Below the pieces are notes generated by a model. It had not been told where the DNA came from. It did not search any database and was given only the letters and a program-made list of their open reading frames with translations. Source: Rubellicoccus peritrichatus (GTDB lineage: Bacteria; Verrucomicrobiota; Verrucomicrobiia; Opitutales; Cerasicoccaceae). Taken from it: a stretch of 64,000 nucleotides of DNA. The stretch is from positions 4,831,001 through 4,895,000 of the forward strand of contig NZ_CP136920.1 in NCBI RefSeq assembly GCF_033100135.1, written 5' to 3'. Made by a program: the position numbers and the translations under genes. Positions 2,963 through 64,000 of this stretch are shown in pieces. Positions within the stretch are counted from its first letter, which is position 1. Every line of letters starts with the position of its first letter.

Positions 2963-3874
2963 ATGAAACCAACACTCCTCGTTCTTGCTGCGGGCATGGG
3001 CAGTCGCTACGGCGGCCTGAAACAAATGGACCCGATGGGGCCAAATGGCGAAACCATGCTGGACTACTCTGTCTACGATGCGATTCGCGCTGGCTTTGAC
3101 CGTGTGGTCTTTGTCATTCGGCGCGACTTCGAAGCGGACTTCAAGCAACAGGTCGGTAGCCGCTTCGCAGGCAAAATTGACGTTGATTACGCATTTCAGG
3201 ATCTAAGCGATTTACCAGAGGGCTTTTCCATTCCTGAAGGCAGGACCAAGCCCTGGGGCACAGCCCACGCCATCCTGGCTGCAAGAAATGTGGTTCATGC
3301 GCCATTTGCAGCTATCAACGCAGATGATTTCTACGGACGTGATGCTTACGCGCAAATCGCTCATTACTTCGAATCGCTCGAAACGCCAGAAGCTCTTCAC
3401 CTCTGCATGGTTGGCTACAATCTGGAAAAAACGTTGTCTGATCATGGCACCGTCAATCGTGGCGTTTGTTCGACAGAAAACGGCTTGCTCATCAACGTCG
3501 AGGAATACACCGAAATTGGTCATTCATCAGAGAAAGGCCTGACTGGTAAAAATCTTACCGGAAACGAAGTTGCTGTTTCCCCCGACTCCAGCGTATCCAT
3601 GAACTTTTGGGGATTCACGCCACCGATCTTCGAACACTTGACCGAAGCCTTTGTTGCCTTCCTCAAAGAACGCGGTTCTGAAATGAAATCAGAGTGTTAC
3701 ATTCCGACTGTAGTGGACGATCTGATCAAAGCTGGCGTGGCACCCTGCCCTGTGTTGGAAACCTCAAGCCCATGGTTTGGTGTCACCTACCCGGATGACA
3801 AGCCCAACGTCGTAGCCAGTATTGAAAAGCTGATCGAAGCAGAAGACTACCCGCAGTCGTTGGTTTGTTGCTAG
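2963..3874 (+). CDS. Sugar-phosphate nucleotidyltransferase
   Basis: A 303-residue protein that opens with LLVLAAGMGSRYGGLKQMDP, the nucleotidyltransferase signature LxxGxGxRxxxxxK. AAINADDFYGRDAY supplies the metal-binding Asp of the GT-A-like fold. The family couples sugar 1-phosphates with NTP; this subtype, with PMGPNGETMLDYSVYDAIRAG, is familiar beside NahK-like kinases in Bacteroidetes and Verrucomicrobia. It is third in the operon after the kinase and epimerase and would act on the kinase product to make the UDP-sugar. No Shine-Dalgarno is evident before the ATG. A large hairpin repeat follows the stop. The nucleotide and sugar specificity is inferred, not visible. Confidence 0.82.
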   Translation: MKPTLLVLAAGMGSRYGGLKQMDPMGPNGETMLDYSVYDAIRAGFDRVVFVIRRDFEADFKQQVGSRFAGKIDVDYAFQDLSDLPEGFSIPEGRTKPWGTAHAILAARNVVHAPFAAINADDFYGRDAYAQIAHYFESLETPEALHLCMVGYNLEKTLSDHGTVNRGVCSTENGLLINVEEYTEIGHSSEKGLTGKNLTGNEVAVSPDSSVSMNFWGFTPPIFEHLTEAFVAFLKERGSEMKSECYIPTVVDDLIKAGVAPCPVLETSSPWFGVTYPDDKPNVVASIEKLIEAEDYPQSLVCC

Positions 3875-7533: not shown

Positions 7534-7642
7534 AGGTCACAAAGAACACGAAGCGTTCACAAAGAACTCAAAGCCCAAAACTTGAAAGCTATCTCGTTCA
7601 ATCTTAGTGGACTTTGTGCCTGCTTTGTGTTCTTCGTGACCT
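7534..7642. repeat. Intergenic hairpin element, CACAAAG class (copy C)
   Basis: Imperfect arms near 7534-7571 and 7606-7642 begin with AGGTCACAAAGAACACGAAG and end with its near complement, CTTTGTGTTCTTCGTGACCT. It lies between the convergent sulfatase and Trp-rich protein genes, where a two-way terminator would be useful. The CACAAAG/CACGAAG words are related in style to the CACAGAG copies at 3.9 and 5.1 kb. Confidence 0.75.
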
Positions 7643-56741: not shown

Positions 56742-58268
56742 TTACCAGTGTGTAAACAAATAAGGCTTATAATCAAAATCGTTGTCGAACTCGACAATGA
56801 TAACATCCGTCACCGGCCCGGCCTTAAGTGCTTCAGGCAGGTGCATCTCCAGCTTACCATCCGAGTATTCAAATGGAAGTGCATCGCCAGTGCGCATTAA
56901 CGTCACAGCAACCGGCTTTCCAGCCCCTTCGAAAACGATTGGATTTTCCTTGGTGGCTTGTTTTTCTTTCGCATGAAAGAACCAGATATTGTCGCGGCAA
57001 GTGATTGGGACATTGCAATCATCGGGCCAGGGACCACCACCATTGATACCAAAAACGGAATCCTTGTTGGTTTTCATCCATTCCTCCATTTCGTCGAAAA
57101 GCCGATAGGCCTGGTCCTGCATTTTGCCATCTGGTCGAGGTCCGATATTGGCAAGTAAGTTACCGCCCATGCAGCGGGCCTCGGCCAAACGCATGAGAAC
57201 TTCATCAGTCGGATAAACTGTTTCCCCCAAATGCTTATCATAGTGCCAGGAACCTCGTTGGATAATCGAGTTGACCTCCCACCACCAGCCGTTCTCAAGA
57301 ACCGGCTTACGAATGTATTGTGGATCGGACATACCAAAACCTTCTGCAGTGGCGTGATCGCCACTGTCATAACCACGATTGTTAACCACGATCCCCGGAC
57401 GCCATTCACGTATCTTATGAATACTGGCTCCATGGCCGCCATCACCCCACCAGATGTCAGGGTCAAATTTTTCAATCAGTTCTTTAACCTGGTTTTCGTT
57501 AAATTCCTCGTATGCTTTTGAGAAGCTTGGAGGGCGTTTGGGTAAGGATTTAACTTTCTCCCCCTTATAGTTAACTAACACACTAGGGTCATAACTGAAA
57601 TTCATATAATCACGCTCAAAATACCAGTCCATCCCTGAGTAATAAAGTCCAACCTTGATGTCATTATCGCGGCACGCCTGAACCCAGGGCTCAACCAGAT
57701 CACGCCCATCCATGGTTTGACGAACACCAATCAGAGCATAGTCCGAATCCCAGATCGCAAAACCACCATGATGCTTCATGGTTAAAACCGAGTACTTAAA
57801 CCCTGCTCGCGCAGCAGCGGACATCCATTTTTCCGGATCGTAGTCAGTCGGGTTCCAGCCTTCAACCGATTCCCACAATTCTGTTTGAGGATAGAATGTT
57901 CCCTTGTCTTCTCTCGCCTGCGACCAACGACCACTCCACCCTTCACCGTTCGGTTCAAAAACACTGGGCAGCCCCCAACAAAGAAAAAGACCGAGACCAG
58001 CCTCAGGCCACCATTGTGCATCGGGATGTTTGGTCCGTTCCGTTTCAACATGAAGCTTACCATTTTTCCACTTGTTCCACATAGGCCAGTGGTAGAAGCG
58101 TTTGCCATCTCGTTCCTCAATGCGCGGTGTTACATTTTCGCCAGTTGCGATGTTTGTATATGATTCTGCACTGCCATCAGCAGACTGACTTGGAGTATGT
58201 TTTTCCGCTGATGCAGGAAGCCCAGCTCCAATAAGAAATGACAATAATACTAAATGCTCTTTGCTCAT
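56742..58268 (-). CDS. Alpha-L-fucosidase, GH29 family, exported
   Basis: A 508-residue protein with a short signal peptide (LVLLSFLIGAGLPASA). WWPEAGLGLFLCWGLPSVF is the usual GH29 start (WWxxAxxGxFxHWG), followed by YSVLTMKHHGGFAIWDSDY. DIWWGDGGHGASI holds the likely nucleophile Asp in the WxDG position. LLANIGPRPDGKMQDQAY is the conserved end of the barrel, and a beta-sandwich closes the protein. It would release L-fucose from fucoidan or glycan ends in the periplasm. A LacI regulator diverges from it across a candidate operator, so fucose-related induction is plausible. Confidence 0.92.
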   Translation of the reverse strand: MSKEHLVLLSFLIGAGLPASAEKHTPSQSADGSAESYTNIATGENVTPRIEERDGKRFYHWPMWNKWKNGKLHVETERTKHPDAQWWPEAGLGLFLCWGLPSVFEPNGEGWSGRWSQAREDKGTFYPQTELWESVEGWNPTDYDPEKWMSAAARAGFKYSVLTMKHHGGFAIWDSDYALIGVRQTMDGRDLVEPWVQACRDNDIKVGLYYSGMDWYFERDYMNFSYDPSVLVNYKGEKVKSLPKRPPSFSKAYEEFNENQVKELIEKFDPDIWWGDGGHGASIHKIREWRPGIVVNNRGYDSGDHATAEGFGMSDPQYIRKPVLENGWWWEVNSIIQRGSWHYDKHLGETVYPTDEVLMRLAEARCMGGNLLANIGPRPDGKMQDQAYRLFDEMEEWMKTNKDSVFGINGGGPWPDDCNVPITCRDNIWFFHAKEKQATKENPIVFEGAGKPVAVTLMRTGDALPFEYSDGKLEMHLPEALKAGPVTDVIIVEFDNDFDYKPYLFTHW

Positions 58269-58323
58269 CTTTTTTAAGTAACTAGACCCCTAGTAAAAAA
58301 TAAATTAAGCCGAAAAACAAGAA

Positions 58324-58343
58324 AAATGTGAACGTGCTCATTT
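58324..58343. promoter_or_regulatory. LacI-type candidate operator between fucosidase and regulator genes
   Basis: AAATGTGAAC|GTGCTCATTT is a 20-base imperfect palindrome centred on CG, with outer AAATG/CATTT perfectly paired. A central CG with A/T-rich edges is typical of LacI-family sites. It lies 56 bases upstream of the fucosidase start and 65 bases upstream of the LacI gene, so the regulator could repress both itself and the fucosidase. Confidence 0.6.
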
Positions 58344-58407
58344 CTTAAGCATGATTATTGAATTTACAGAATCCACCGACCAATCAAGGTAGAGGATAAG
58401 CAGCTCG

Positions 58408-59466
58408 ATGAAGAACCAGACTTACGAAAAGACAACAGCCACCCTCGTTGAGGTTGCCAACAAAGCAGGTGTGTCCAGACAAACCGCGAGTCGCATTCTG
58501 GGAGGGAATGCAGATAAGCATAAAGCAGCGACCGTGGATAAAGTGCACCAAGTCGCAAACGAACTGGGATATCGTCCGAATCTGTTAGCCAAGAGCATTG
58601 TCTCAGGTCGGACTTACAGTATTGGTATTTTGATACCAAGTGCGATCAGTCATGATGTATTTTTTGCCCAAGTGATCTCTGGCATTCAACAAAAGCTAGC
58701 CGAAACCGATCTTATCCCAATCTTCCTTCACTCTTCTGAGAGGCATCCCGAACACCAGCAAATTCACCGTCTCGTAGACCGTCGTGTAGACGGCATTTTA
58801 CTCATTCCGCACGCAACGAACGTCAGTCTGGATTACTTCAATGAGATAGTGAATCGCAACATACCCGTAGTCTGCATCAATGAAAAACTGCACAATGTCA
58901 AACCGGTCGACTTTGTAGGCACTGATGAATTCAAAGGCGGCCAAGCTGCAGCCGAATTCTTATTACAAAATGGGCATACCCGACTCTGCTCATTAAGGGT
59001 CGACCAATCATTCAACCTTGGCATGCGCCATGATGGTTTTGAGAAAACAGCGACTGCAGCAGGAGCCTCATGCCAGAGTGTATCGCTGCCCGGCTGGTCA
59101 CTTGAGGAGAACATGGATCTACTTTGCGATTTCCTGCAAAAACCGAAACGACCAACTGCATTTTTTGCGGTCACTGATTTATATGCGGCTATGCTCTACA
59201 AGGCAGCAGAGAAATTAGGCTTAAAGATTCCGCAGGACTTTTCCGTTATTGGCTTTGCTGATAACACTCTGGCCCAATACCTTTCTCCGTCCTTGACCAC
59301 ATTACGCCAACAAGGAAAAGACATTGGAATCCTGGCCACCACTGCCCTCCTTAAGCGCATTAACGGCTCAAAAGCACGCATACAGAATTTAACACTGCCT
59401 GCAGAACTCATTCAACGCGATTCAGTAGCACCAGTAAAAAAGAAACGAAGGAAACAACCTTCCTGA
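58408..59466 (+). CDS. LacI-family transcriptional regulator
   Basis: A 352-residue repressor. The N-terminal helix-turn-helix is ATLVEVANKAGVSRQTASRI, followed by hinge NELGYRPNLLAKSIVSGRT and a periplasmic-binding-protein-like effector domain (YSIGILIPSAISHDVFFAQV, FVGTDEFKGGQAAAEFL, FSVIGFADNTLAQYLSPSLT). The family binds sugar effectors and releases palindromic operators. Its divergent neighbour is the fucosidase, with a candidate operator between, so fucose or a fucosylated sugar is the likely effector by context. A Lys/Arg-rich tail (KKKRRKQ) ends the protein. Confidence 0.94.
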   Translation: MKNQTYEKTTATLVEVANKAGVSRQTASRILGGNADKHKAATVDKVHQVANELGYRPNLLAKSIVSGRTYSIGILIPSAISHDVFFAQVISGIQQKLAETDLIPIFLHSSERHPEHQQIHRLVDRRVDGILLIPHATNVSLDYFNEIVNRNIPVVCINEKLHNVKPVDFVGTDEFKGGQAAAEFLLQNGHTRLCSLRVDQSFNLGMRHDGFEKTATAAGASCQSVSLPGWSLEENMDLLCDFLQKPKRPTAFFAVTDLYAAMLYKAAEKLGLKIPQDFSVIGFADNTLAQYLSPSLTTLRQQGKDIGILATTALLKRINGSKARIQNLTLPAELIQRDSVAPVKKKRRKQPS

Positions 59467-59574
59467 ACAAGAATAGGGCTTGGATCCTGTCTCATAAAAA
59501 CACGTCGAAAAAGGTCTGAACTTGATCCAAAGGAAACAAAAAGGTTTCTTTCATGTCTCTTAGCGAAACACCCT

Positions 59575-61098
59575 ATGCATCGAAAAACATATCCATTCTT
59601 TGTTGTGGCGGCACTCGCAGTCGCCTCTGTTCTCTTCACCTCAGATTATGCTGGCAAGTTATGCGCAGCTGAAGAGGAGGACGAATTCCCACCAGTCGAG
59701 CTGAAGCGTGACACTTCCGATCTCAACCGAAAGGATAGTGCCCGCATCGTCAGCTACGCAGATGTCCTCGAGCCCATAACGCCAGCTGTGGTCAGTGTCT
59801 ATACAGCTCAAGTTCGCGAAACAGACCCGAGACGTGAGGCTCTGGAGGAAATGATGCGGCGTTACTTCGGAATGCCCCAACAACAAACTCCGGATACTCC
59901 TCAAAATGACGAGCCGGAGCCAACCGGCATGGGATCGGGATTCATTGTAAGCAAGGACGGGTATATTTTGACTAACAACCACGTTGTCAAAGGCCTTAAC
60001 AATACCACTCCGGACGAGATCACGGTTAAACTGCGTGACGGACGTGAGTTTGACGCCAAGCTGGTTGGTGGGGATTCTCAAACCGATGTCGCTGTCCTCA
60101 AAATTGACGCCGATGATCTTCCATTTCTGACCATTGGTGACAGCAGCCAGTTGCGCGTTGGTGACATTGTTTTTGCCGTGGGCAATCCACTAGGCATCGG
60201 TCTAACCGTGACTCAGGGGATTATTTCCGCCATGGACCGCACGGATCTGGGCATTCTGCAAGGCGGCTTTGAAAGCTTTATCCAAACCGATGCCGCCATC
60301 AACCGGGGCAACTCCGGAGGCCCGCTCGTCGATGCGGAAGGTCGTGTTATCGGGATTAATTCGGCGATTATTTCGGATTCTTACTTTGGAGGAAACATCG
60401 GCATCGGTTTTGCCATTCCGGTCGATCTGGCAGCCAACGTCATGGAGAGCCTGGTGGAAGGTGGTGAAGTCCGTCGTGGCTTTATCGGCATCCGCCCGGA
60501 ACCGTTGACTCGCGAGCTGGCTGAAGCTTTTGGCCTCAACAACACCAAGGGAGCCGTTGTTGCCCGGGTGACTCCCGATCTTCCAGCCGACAAAGCAGGG
60601 CTTCGTCATGGCGATGTGGTTTTGACCGTGAACGGCGACCAGGTCGACTCGGTCAATGACCTCATTTATCTGATCTCCAAGCTCGAACCTGGTACCATTG
60701 CCAAGCTCGGCATTTCCCGTGGCGGCAAGGATGAAACCATCGATGTGAAACTCGGTGATCGTTCTCAGTTGATCGCAGGCGCTGTCGATGATGCCTACAG
60801 CACACCACAGCAGGATCTTTTTGAAGGGGTAAAGCTCAAGCCAGTCAGCGATAAGGTTCGAAATGACTTTGATATCCCGGAGGATGTATCCGGCCTGTTG
60901 ATCGAGGAAGTGACCCAAAGTTCGCCTTATGGCCGGACCTTGGCCCCTGGAGTCGTTATTATTGAGATTAACGGCAAACCTGTCGCCACAATTGATGAAG
61001 CCAAAGCAGCCCTCAAAGAAGACGGCAAAGTGAATTCCGTATACGTCTACTTTGAAGGTAACTTCACCTACACAACGATTACAGTGAAGAAAGAGTAG
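59575..61098 (+). CDS. HtrA/DegP-family periplasmic serine protease
   Basis: A 507-residue exported protease. The signal peptide covers about residues 1-31 (FFVVAALAVASVLFTSDYAGKLCA). The trypsin-like triad is visible: His136 (LTNNHVVKG), Asp171 (QTDVAVLKID) and Ser247 (NRGNSGGPLVD). Two PDZ domains follow: about 305-400 (GFIGIRPEPLTRELAEAFGL, AGLRHGDVVLTVNGDQ) and about 415-505 (VSGLLIEEVTQSSP, GVVIIEINGKPVATI). It degrades or refolds damaged envelope proteins. The 21-bp repeats follow its stop. Start and length fit DegQ/DegP relatives; which subtype cannot be told. Confidence 0.94.
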   Translation: MHRKTYPFFVVAALAVASVLFTSDYAGKLCAAEEEDEFPPVELKRDTSDLNRKDSARIVSYADVLEPITPAVVSVYTAQVRETDPRREALEEMMRRYFGMPQQQTPDTPQNDEPEPTGMGSGFIVSKDGYILTNNHVVKGLNNTTPDEITVKLRDGREFDAKLVGGDSQTDVAVLKIDADDLPFLTIGDSSQLRVGDIVFAVGNPLGIGLTVTQGIISAMDRTDLGILQGGFESFIQTDAAINRGNSGGPLVDAEGRVIGINSAIISDSYFGGNIGIGFAIPVDLAANVMESLVEGGEVRRGFIGIRPEPLTRELAEAFGLNNTKGAVVARVTPDLPADKAGLRHGDVVLTVNGDQVDSVNDLIYLISKLEPGTIAKLGISRGGKDETIDVKLGDRSQLIAGAVDDAYSTPQQDLFEGVKLKPVSDKVRNDFDIPEDVSGLLIEEVTQSSPYGRTLAPGVVIIEINGKPVATIDEAKAALKEDGKVNSVYVYFEGNFTYTTITVKKE

Positions 61099-61137
61099 GC
61101 AATACTGAGCGCCGCGTCAGACACTATGGCAGACTAA

Positions 61138-61263
61138 ACATATGCGGCATCTTGTGCGTTATATGCCATAGATGACGCATCATATGCTACACCTTGCGTG
61201 TCATATGTGGCAACTTGCGTGTCGTACGCAACAGTTGGACCGTAAGTGCTACATTATGCAATT
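61138..61263. repeat. Array of six 21-bp CATATG-core repeats
   Basis: Six consecutive units start at 61138, 61159, 61180, 61201, 61222 and 61243, each exactly 21 bases long. Units 3 and 4 begin TCATATG and end CTTGCGTG; the others vary around an (A/T)CATATGC start and a GCG/ACG end. Because 21 is a multiple of three, reading frames repeat every seven codons, and both strands stay open across the array: SYATPCV-SYVATCV on the plus strand and TQVATYD-TQGVAYD on the minus strand. Neither frame has a start with a ribosome-binding site. The array lies between the htrA-type gene and a PEP-CTERM gene. The remaining bases of 61099-61400 are AT-rich leader. Confidence 0.8.
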
Positions 61264-61400
61264 GATTAAAGCATAGTTTCCGCAAACTGAATTTTTATCA
61301 TAAAAATTGTGCAATTAACCCATTATTCATATTACATTCATGTTTCATATGGTATAATCCTTAACATACACGCAATATGCTTTCTTCTTAACTCACTATC

Positions 61401-62006
61401 ATGCACCTGCAAAAAACAAATTTTCTCTGTTTGAGAAAATTGACCACAATACTGATTTTCATAGGCTCTGCCTCATTCTGCCTTCAATCCCATGCAGTGT
61501 TGAATCTTCACATCGATGTTGTGAATGAAGAAACCTGGGTTACCGGTTCGGATACTGGAAGGTTGGATATCAACGGTAGAATTTATTGGACTTTCCAGCC
61601 TACTAGCCAAGGGTTAAACCTCCCGTCCGGAACCTTGGATTTTGCATCGATTATAGTAGAAGATGCCCCTGACGGTGCATTCTTTTTCGCGAACGCTGCC
61701 GTGGCAGAACTGGGAACGAATTCAGGTGATAAATATGGTGCTTTTGGAGTTGAGGAATTCGTTGGGGTAGCGAGCTTAGCAACCGTTACGATTGTAGGAA
61801 CGGGATCGATTGGGAAGTTCAGCTACAGTGGTTTACGCGACAAATCATATTTTGAAGCCATGATTGGGCAATCTGTGCCCTTTTTTGACCGGAACGGTGC
61901 CGCTGATTGGAGTAATTTAAATGTCGTAGTTCCTGAGCCTGCACACACCGCGCTTTTGATTGTCTTCACCGCTCTGTTTGCCTGCTTTCGCAGGAAGCGC
62001 CCGTGA
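61401..62006 (+). CDS. Small PEP-CTERM protein
   Basis: A 201-residue exported protein with signal peptide (TTILIFIGSASFCLQSHA). The body is a beta-rich domain (TFQPTSQGLNLPSGTLDFAS, FFFANAAVAELG) without a recognised family. The C-terminus, VVPEPAHTALLIVFTALFAC followed by FRRKRP, is a PEP-CTERM signal with PEPA instead of the more common PEPS or PEPG. It lies downstream of the 21-bp array and is probably anchored or processed at the outer membrane. Function unknown. Confidence 0.8.
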   Translation: MHLQKTNFLCLRKLTTILIFIGSASFCLQSHAVLNLHIDVVNEETWVTGSDTGRLDINGRIYWTFQPTSQGLNLPSGTLDFASIIVEDAPDGAFFFANAAVAELGTNSGDKYGAFGVEEFVGVASLATVTIVGTGSIGKFSYSGLRDKSYFEAMIGQSVPFFDRNGAADWSNLNVVVPEPAHTALLIVFTALFACFRRKRP

Positions 62007-62103
62007 AGCCTTAAAGTCAGTCTCAATCGGGTCCCTGAGTGGAATCAAAGGCGGCGAGGACCTTACCTTATGGCCAGAGAGACGCAGCTCCTCATGATGT
62101 GAC

Positions 62104-62568
62104 TTAGGTCAAGGCGGGTGCGTAAGCGGAAAGATGCTTTTGCTTTTCGTAAAGTTCGACTTCCATCAACGCTGCCCAAGTCCTCATATAAAGTGCGGCG
62201 TCAGAACGCTGGCCTTTTCGCAAATAACGAAACCCTCCCGGAAGAGCGTTGAGGACTTGCTGATTCGATAAATACTCCAATTGGTGGATGTCCTTCAATT
62301 CCAGACCAATAGCGAACATAGCGTCCATAATCATATCCATCGGCGCCCCACTCGATGGACAATAGTCTTGGGCATACTCAGACCATTCTTCCAGAGCCTG
62401 GCTATACGCACGCTGGTAAATTTCTGAAGATGTCAGCGGTGTGATGCATTGCGCTAAATGGCCGCAATTACAATGGCCAACATGCCCCCAGCAATAATCG
62501 GCCCCTGATTCGATTTTTGCGGCGGCTTCTCTCAGTTTGTCGATGAGTTCTCGGTTCGCTCTTGCCAT
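62104..62568 (-). CDS. Conserved hypothetical protein with CWGHVGHCNCGHLAQC motif
   Basis: A 154-residue soluble protein without signal or membrane segments. The segment near residues 26-41 packs four Cys and three His in CWGHVGHCNCGHLAQC, a likely metal-binding knuckle. A further CPSSGAPMDMIMDAMFAIGL and a helical C-terminal half (LEYLSNQQVLNALPGGFRYL) follow. I recall similar proteins of unknown role in Bacteroidetes and Verrucomicrobia, unverified. It ends 97 bases before the convergent PEP-CTERM gene. Function unknown; a metal- or redox-related role is only inferred from the motif. Confidence 0.7.
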   Translation of the reverse strand: MARANRELIDKLREAAAKIESGADYCWGHVGHCNCGHLAQCITPLTSSEIYQRAYSQALEEWSEYAQDYCPSSGAPMDMIMDAMFAIGLELKDIHQLEYLSNQQVLNALPGGFRYLRKGQRSDAALYMRTWAALMEVELYEKQKHLSAYAPALT

Positions 62569-62909
62569 CTTAAACTATTTCACAAGTTAACTTGGATATT
62601 AAAAAGACCTTATAGCTTCTATTAGTTTTTGCTGTTACCAACATTCATTGCCCAAGGTAAATTCCGTAGGCATAACACCGTTTGCACAACGAAAGCCCGT
62701 TGTCAACAAGGTGGACTTTTTGAAGGAAGCCAGCATGTTGTTTGCATGCGAAACTTAATCATAGCTGGCGCAAAGGCCTGAAGCAAACCTGATCTTCTTT
62801 GCGACTTGGAGTGAGATAATCACGGCCTTCAGTTTTCCAGGTAAGCCACTCGCAGAGGAAAACCCGATAGCGCACCTCAGGAGTTACTTTTTCGCTGATC
62901 ACGATTTGC
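62569..62909. other. Gene-free stretch downstream of the AraC gene
   Basis: This 341-base gap lies between the start of the Cys/His hypothetical and the stop of the AraC gene, both leftward. A leftward frame covers 62759-62998, overlapping the AraC 3' end in another frame; its part from VRYRVFLCEWLTWKTEGRDY onward is somewhat protein-like, but it has no good start and no family. I see no RNA gene or clear hairpin. It may contain the promoter of the hypothetical gene. Confidence 0.4.
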
Positions 62910-63794
62910 CTACCGCTTAAAATATTCGCGAGGTCCGTAGCCGTAGGTTTCGAGAAATACTTTATAGAACTGAGCATAACTGCCAAACCCGGCGGCAAAG
63001 ACAGACTCCAGCAAGGTCTTTTGCTCGGGCTGTCGATAATAAGACATAAAACGGCTCAAGCGAATTGAATTGCGGTAGTGATTGAGTGGCACCCCGACTT
63101 GCTCCCTGAATAAACGGCTTAAATATGCAGCGCTGACACCACAACGGGATGCAATATCATCCAGGCCGGCCAGTTCACCTTCACCCAGTAATTGGAGCGC
63201 CCGATAAACTGCAGGATGCAATTGAGTCGAACTATCCCGCTCGGATTTTTCCTGGGACAATCTCCAGCAAAGAATCAACAGATAGCGCAATCCGGCATTA
63301 AGGGCATCGGGATCGTTGTGCTCGAATCGGAAACTTGACTGTGATCCAAATCCAGCCTCGCGATTCAGAAGGGCGGAATCAAGCGATCCCACCATAAGTG
63401 TATCCATAATGCCCTTCAGCAAATCAAAAGACTCGGGACGTAATTGCCGGTTAAGGATACCTTCGCAGTTAATATCTTCCCGCTTGAGATCGCCATAATC
63501 ATCACCACGGCATGTCTCAGCGATCATCTCTGGCTTAAACACGCCGACATAGTTATTGGCATCAGGAGTACGATGAACCAGCTGATGCTCCTGAGCCGGA
63601 AAAAACCACAGAAGCGTCCCTTTTGAGAATACATATCGCTTCCCACCAACGACATAGGTGAGCTCCCCCCGGACAACTAAATTCAACTCAAGCTCAACGT
63701 GACGATGACTGCCAATCGCACGCGGATTTAGCTCGGACTGGGACAGATAGAGAAACCCATCGTAGGTGTCACTGATCTTTAGATTCTCAAGCAT
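62910..63794 (-). CDS. AraC-family transcriptional regulator with cupin sensor domain
   Basis: A 294-residue regulator. The N-terminal half is a cupin-like ligand domain (IGSHRHVELELNLVVRGELT, GTLLWFFPAQEHQLVHRTP). The C-terminal third holds the two AraC helix-turn-helices: LDDIASRCGVSAAYLSRLFR and LLESVFAAGFGSYAQFYKVF, ending in YGPREYFKR. Members of this type often sense sugars. It diverges from the incomplete gene at 63918, which it probably controls, since the gap is only 123 bases. A/T-rich bases lie between. Confidence 0.92.
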   Translation of the reverse strand: MLENLKISDTYDGFLYLSQSELNPRAIGSHRHVELELNLVVRGELTYVVGGKRYVFSKGTLLWFFPAQEHQLVHRTPDANNYVGVFKPEMIAETCRGDDYGDLKREDINCEGILNRQLRPESFDLLKGIMDTLMVGSLDSALLNREAGFGSQSSFRFEHNDPDALNAGLRYLLILCWRLSQEKSERDSSTQLHPAVYRALQLLGEGELAGLDDIASRCGVSAAYLSRLFREQVGVPLNHYRNSIRLSRFMSYYRQPEQKTLLESVFAAGFGSYAQFYKVFLETYGYGPREYFKR

Positions 63795-63917
63795 GAGTTA
63801 AAAAAATGATAACTTTTTCATCTATATCGAGTAGAAATCAAGAAAATCTTAGCATATAATGATCATTACTGCAGCTTATTTTACCTATCAGATGAGGCAG
63901 CAAACCAATTTACTCCC

Positions 63918-64000
63918 ATGGCAACGACCTTAGAAAAACCAGAAATTGATCTCAGCGACTATAGTCTCGTTGGTAAAAATGCCGAACTCGCCATTGAGAA
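63918..64000 (+). CDS. Start of a gene cut by the window, possibly a fatty-acid-desaturase-like protein
   Basis: Only 27 codons are visible: MATTLEKPEIDLSDYSLVGK followed by NAELAIE. There is no signal peptide. The pattern LVGKNAELAIE recalls, from memory, the N-terminus of verrucomicrobial proteins annotated as fatty acid desaturase or similar, and this is unverified. It diverges from the AraC gene, which is likely its regulator. Too short for a firm call. Confidence 0.35.
   Translation, partial: MATTLEKPEIDLSDYSLVGKNAELAIE

Follow-up and report, generated by a model that had tools for sequence, protein, structure and literature searches.

The window analyzed here is a stretch of 64,000 nucleotides from Rubellicoccus peritrichatus (NZ_CP136920.1, here also G000:C1, positions 4831001-4895000), whose genome is a single contig of 5.80 Mb; seven-digit positions below refer to that contig and shorter ones to the window. 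On the plus strand, a degP/htrA-type serine protease gene (59575..61098; TIGR02037, 455.7 bits against a cut-off of 416.2), whose product has its best named match in an Opitutia bacterium at 42% identity, ends with a stop codon 40 bp before the start of an array of five tandem units in exact 21-bp phase (61139..61243; neither the repeat units nor the palindrome described below carry a strand). The unit approximates CATATG-N3-CANNTT-GNGNGT. Its CATATG core is exact in units 1 (61139..61144), 3 (61181..61186), and 4 (61202..61207), while unit 2 has TATATG (at 61160) and unit 5 has CGTACG (at 61223) in its place. A sixth row (61244..61264), starting with AAGTGC, is weakly similar and off phase, with its best fit at an offset of -3. 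Mean identity across the six rows, five of which share a common phase, is 46%; units 3 and 4 are the most similar neighbors, and Tandem Repeats Finder reports 2.1 copies at 61180-61223. The original prediction had described six exact 21-bp repeats that would place all CATATG palindromes on one face of the helix. Its period stood, but the exactness did not, and the common helix face applies to the three exact copies and not to the remaining rows.

Past the array lies an A+T-rich perfect palindrome, AATTTTTAT-C-ATAAAAATT (61290..61308), followed on the plus strand by a promoter-like site (61331..61358), ATTACA-16-TATAAT, whose second hexamer is preceded by TG. The array ends 87 bp upstream of this site, which is one of three such sites in 601 bp, with 1.8 expected by chance. 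The next plus-strand ORF (61401..62006) encodes 201 amino acids, looks secreted, with a tail judged by eye to be PEP-CTERM-like, and has no Pfam or NCBIfam match. An AraC-type gene (62910-63794) lies farther downstream. Elsewhere in the window, at 7537-7574, Tandem Repeats Finder detected 1.9 copies of a 20-bp tandem repeat of the CACAAAGAACACAAAG type, which we take to be widespread.

The 21-bp periodicity of the array is beyond chance. Its self-match at lag 21 amounts to 43/66, 50/84, or 55/105 bases, and the observed maximum was reached by 0/1000 dinucleotide shuffles of 61099-61400, either at lag 21 or at any lag between 10 and 45. Within the 64-kb window, no other lag-21 stretch scores as high (55/105, with the runner-up at 49), and the gap that contains the array has the top 21/22 score among the 488 tandem-gene gaps of a 2.06-Mb sample of its own genome. 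A half-period alternation of A+T and G+C accompanies the repeat at a nominal p of 0.037. Arrays of 15-bp dyads were considered as a definition of the class and dropped because chains of dyads exceeded shuffles at many periods and the window array scored best at period 19, not 21.

A credible second copy of the array sequence was not found in the same genome. The window 21-mer, with up to three mismatches, recovered the array itself only, the reversed control also giving one match, and the whole gap matched itself and four weak sequences (E 0.6-7.6). Searches with the exact unit gave no match in viral contigs or plasmids and weak matches in three phage records (best E 0.2). DNA matches at E up to 1 were obtained in 25 of 54 genomes (own included), mostly on the A+T-rich palindrome after the array; those in the 53 other genomes, with a best E of 0.02, were taken as chance rather than as true copies. 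Furthermore, the array is absent after degP in all eight relatives compared (six of the family and two of the order), where the 700 bp 3' of that gene reach at most 32/66 at lag 21 versus 43 in the window.

Related arrays do occur at other loci. A genome search for 21-bp periodic CATATG had originally been proposed, and three further loci carry the unit CATATG-N3-YATATG-NGATCN at 21 bp (4217666-4217750, 4305926-4305989, and 5147193-5147228). A 27-base pattern of this unit, with up to three mismatches, had ten matches in the genome, all at these loci (reversed control, 0), and one match in each of two out of nine other family members. The window profile resembles two of the CATATG loci, at a level equaled by 1 and 2, respectively, of 200 column shuffles (66 profile pairs compared), and differs from all three inside the unit; kinship is likely. 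The absence of further copies, which the original prediction had named as evidence against itself, holds for the exact window sequence but fails for this kind of array. Across the order, a run of three CATATG spaced 21 bp apart, with one mismatch at most, was found in 2 of 372 genomes, namely, this one (two loci) and G211. The G211 case (L149/L155) is an exact three-copy 21-bp minisatellite, GGAGGTGAAGGAGGGTCATAT, apparently inside a secreted-protein gene (coding judged by eye). Motifs of the arrays vary by locus, including TTGGGC-N3-GCCCAA, TACGTC-N3-GACGTA, GCTTACTC..., and TTCCC...GGGAA besides CATATG, and the two-turn spacing is constant.

The CATATG array at 4217624 adjoins a PocR-AraC gene, between it and a divergent neighbor. 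Five of five family members with the same gene pair keep the short divergent gap and have no CATATG array in the 600 bp upstream; by this comparison, the sister array is an insertion. The gap also holds a block common to all five, TCTCCGCATA..C.GAC.A around TGGTCAGTATATGCGGAGACA (L152 5840-5900, G000:C1 ~4217840), upstream of a cbb3-type oxidase-like gene, and this block has the look of a genuine control site. At 4305926, the third CATATG array follows the stop codon of one gene and precedes another gene, lying as much downstream of the first as upstream of the second. Two other repeated structures were noted on this contig. One, a dispersed element (2030671, 4323821, 4372661, and 5377840), consists of arrays in which GCTTACTCTGACAGAGTAAGC-like palindromes recur at intervals of 22-23 bp, each array being bordered by TGC(A/G)GACATTTTG(T/G)CACAC-like sequence. 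The other, at ~4478000-4610000 (L203-L210), is a bacteriophage-like unit of 35,720 bp in about 3.7 near-identical tandem copies (mean identity of 0.997 at that lag), with domains of a terminase large subunit and of a phage capsid/prohead protease.

The preference for the two-turn period was quantified in a 2.064-Mb sample of the genome, with gaps scored over 36 periods (10-45) at a threshold of z 4.6. This value was reached at period 21 (nine) or 22 (five) by 14 of 788 intergenic gaps, so that 14 of the 43 gap-period matches fall on 2 of the 36 periods. The other recurrent periods were 45 (five), 19 (four, in prophage copies), and 11, 42, and 44 (three each), and control pairs of periods gave 1 (15/16), 3 (17/18), 0 (25/26), and 0 (28/29). 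The six best intergenic self-similar stretches at periods 12-40 all have a period of 21 or 22, with the window array third. With 66 comparisons and z >= 4.6, the sample yielded 31 matches, 11 of them at 21/22, and its five shuffled copies yielded 13, none at 21/22. In the family member with the closest DegP (G002; 400 kb sampled), 5 of 170 gaps hold period-21 arrays. The control gaps comprised Escherichia coli K-12, with a period-21/22 array in 0/141 (eight 50-kb stretches), and mixed other phyla, with 2/321 (80 loci). The contrast between family and controls (19/958 versus 2/462 gaps; p 0.015) is modest, and period-21 arrays are not confined to the family, since a separate scan of the 80 mixed-phyla loci gave two period-21 matches, L138 and L126. 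The L126 match looks coding by eye. In L138, a betaproteobacterial contig, a 21-bp phased GCAGATT array (3123-3235) lies between two genes with its strand reversed halfway, a build like that of the arrays here; repeats of this type are presumably widespread. Arrays occur in all kinds of gap and are not limited to gene ends: according to a simple gene caller, they fall in 8/488 tandem, 3/176 divergent, and 3/125 convergent gaps of the own genome and in 2/106, 0/38, and 3/26, respectively, of G002. None such was recognized in the literature, in a search that reached few subscription papers.

Arrays in the own genome have three to six units each, and those in G002 have up to 15, at about 50% identity and with no phase change. 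Since arrays were detected by ungapped similarity, which favors in-phase ones, the phase test scored rows outside the four-row seed, at 17 offsets. In five G002 arrays, 33 of 46 such rows fit best at offset 0, versus 5 of 31 in the own genome, where the test is nearly empty because arrays hardly extend beyond their seeds. Neutral simulations kept five units in phase in 13% of cases at 5% indels per substitution and in 43% at 2%; for 15 units, the values were 0.4% and 8.6%. The original prediction had argued that divergence with a retained period indicates selection on spacing. Support for this claim came at the level of the class, as periods 21/22 stand out from all others in the gaps of both the own genome and the relative, and from the phase of the extra rows in G002 but not in the own genome. 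For the window array by itself, five in-phase rows prove little given the simulated range, and the break of phase at its sixth row is a point against selected spacing. The case for such selection rests on G002 and on the period preference, and less on the window array. Additionally, the halves of two G002 arrays share a motif in gene-sense orientation, with the strand switching between them (0/500 shuffles each); at a third locus, the switch is not clear (27/500). We regard this as a lead only, as the strand of the right-hand gene at the first locus differs between gene determinations.

Our tentative first choice among the explanations is that the window array, short and worn, belongs to a class of intergenic arrays built from tandem units of two helical turns, whose spacing would be selected for a DNA-level role that reads phase. 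This reading was ranked first, with functionless decay close behind. In the latter, itself a serious possibility, slippage would have duplicated a 21-bp stretch in tandem and drift would have followed, so that even spacing would be inherited and not selected; genome-wide, many such scars would have been kept, perhaps since two-turn duplications form more readily. By bare definition, the window array is a decayed tandem repeat: like minisatellites and VNTRs, it has head-to-tail units of fixed length, with copies beyond chance in the shuffles and in Tandem Repeats Finder, in an intergenic position and with no close copy elsewhere. Decay would suit the greater likeness of neighboring units 3 and 4, an array that is short, unique, and missing after degP in 8/8 relatives, a sister array at 4217624 that would be a recent insertion (CATATG missing in 5/5 relatives with the same divergent gene pair), and the 13% of neutral simulations with five units in phase at the higher indel rate. 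However, decay alone accounts neither for the prominence of 21 and 22 in a set of 36 periods nor for 15 G002 units staying in phase at ~50% identity, an outcome of 0.4% or 8.6% of simulations. It is in these two respects, unit lengths piling up at 21 and 22 and long arrays keeping phase, that the arrays differ from minisatellites.

The array could also serve the gene at 61401 as an upstream operator with several sites, its 21-bp direct repeats binding an AraC/XylS-type regulator or some other dimer, although we judge this improbable. Direct repeats about 21 bp apart suit the AraC/XylS family, whose tandem operators resemble the arrays in this respect, and the promoter-like site beyond the array, the AraC-type gene downstream, and the PocR-AraC gene beside the array at 4217624 are all compatible with it. 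On the other hand, AraC-type genes are common in such genomes. Where the tandem operators of that family have two units, the window array has five. Nor does the sister CATATG array stay with the regulator gene in relatives: the PocR-AraC locus keeps its shared block but no CATATG in 5/5 relatives, which argues against conserved operators, and the position after degP is likewise empty in 8/8. The array at 4305926, placed as much downstream as upstream of a gene, is a further point against an operator.

Less probable again is a role as RNA, with the 3' region of the degP transcript forming a structured RNA or a group of hairpins that would stabilize or terminate it. The plus strand folds somewhat better than shuffles (z -2.8 for 61130-61275; z -2.5 for 61139-61263), and several palindromic arrays of the own genome fold strongly (e.g., z -5.1 and -6.9). 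Nevertheless, the fold weakens in longer windows (z -1.8 and -1.5), the array also folds as DNA (z -2.9), as palindromic repeats do, and shuffles fold at least as well as five of the eight G002 strands scored (z above 0). No terminator-like site lies in 60900-61500 and no Rfam family covers the array; within 58000-64000, Rfam gave two matches, scoring 20.4 and 14.2 bits where 35 and 35.6 are required, and both lie off the array. The G002 arrays are slightly C-rich, and Rho sites were considered for them and set aside (window strand C 0.22, G 0.23, with some structure). Finally, a repeat-coding sequence, in which each unit would supply seven codons and read SYATxCV or, on the opposite strand, AYDTQxx, is very unlikely: 21 is a multiple of 3 and, as originally reported, both strands are open without a start signal, here for about 35 codons each (plus frame from stop to stop, TYAASCALYAIDDASYATPCVSYVATCVSYATVGP), but stops lie on both sides, neither frame has a start codon at its head, no similar sequence was found in 53 other genomes, and period-22 sister arrays cannot repeat codons. 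Neither a peptide, nor a known RNA family, nor a conserved operator is supported by these results.

The nearest described elements are REPs and BIMEs, which share with these arrays an intergenic position, short and wholly or partly palindromic units, and several families per genome. One verrucomicrobium, Opitutus terrae, is reported to have abundant REPs (PMC3733652). A REP family, however, repeats one sequence many times over, carries a GTAG or CGTC tag, and usually leaves 20-100 bp from one partner to the next, whereas the arrays here are locus-specific in sequence and untagged, with the two-turn period as their only common trait. The window unit has no credible second place in its genome, its CATATG relatives at three loci differing inside the unit; neither GTAG nor CGTC occurs in 61139-61264 on the strand shown, and no window unit contains a perfect 6-bp stem (both by eye). 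A REP/RAYT origin was also considered and gained no clear support. PF01797 (Y1_Tnp) has three matches in the genome, and the flanking sequence inspected for the best one lacks the array motif by eye. The combination of a period preference with locus-specific motifs is outside what REP/BIME elements and decayed tandem repeats cover.

Under the reading that we rank first, a selected two-turn spacing, the role of the arrays would probably be exerted as DNA, through wrapping or topology, by analogy with that thought for BIMEs. Selection holding the phase would present the same DNA face in every unit, and a protein of low sequence specificity, such as gyrase or a nucleoid protein, would wrap or bend the array. 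Lying between genes, here just past a stop codon, the element might handle the twist left by transcription, as a BIME may, and the motif peculiar to each locus would preserve a record of the tandem duplication by which that array grew. A possible parallel is the E. coli gyrase motif, described in PMC6379681 as degenerate and 130 bp long, with G/C content that varies in phase every 10 bp; the enzyme cleaves within BIME-2 elements, and the motif is enriched there and downstream of operons. The likeness lies in a long, degenerate motif phased at about the helical turn; the difference is that its G/C phase comes without sequence repeats. The test for G/C phasing at the helical turn gave p 0.037 for the window array and p 0.030 for the 4217 array, and p above 0.05 for 11 of the 14 other profiles. 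Half-period G+C alternation gave a combined p of 0.003 over 11 period-21 profiles, some of which are not independent, and is absent from five period-22 arrays and 6 of the 11 period-21 profiles (p above 0.1).

A bolder proposal, which we consider rather unlikely, is that the helix-phased arrays in the gaps of this family share nothing but their two-turn spacing: the motif would evolve at each locus, a structural protein or gyrase would read the phase, and these wrapping or twist-absorbing sites would be encoded by spacing rather than by sequence, with some gaps switching strand midway. If so, the halves of strand-switching arrays would each face their own gene, the pattern seen at two G002 loci. 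Even if the arrays are mere scars, a duplication length biased toward two helical turns would add something new to what is known of how bacterial tandem repeats originate. If instead the phase is selected while the sequence drifts, the arrays would provide a natural test of DNA-wrapping or topology sites encoded by helical spacing alone, and such spacing-only elements would escape motif and homology searches, which would explain their missing annotation.
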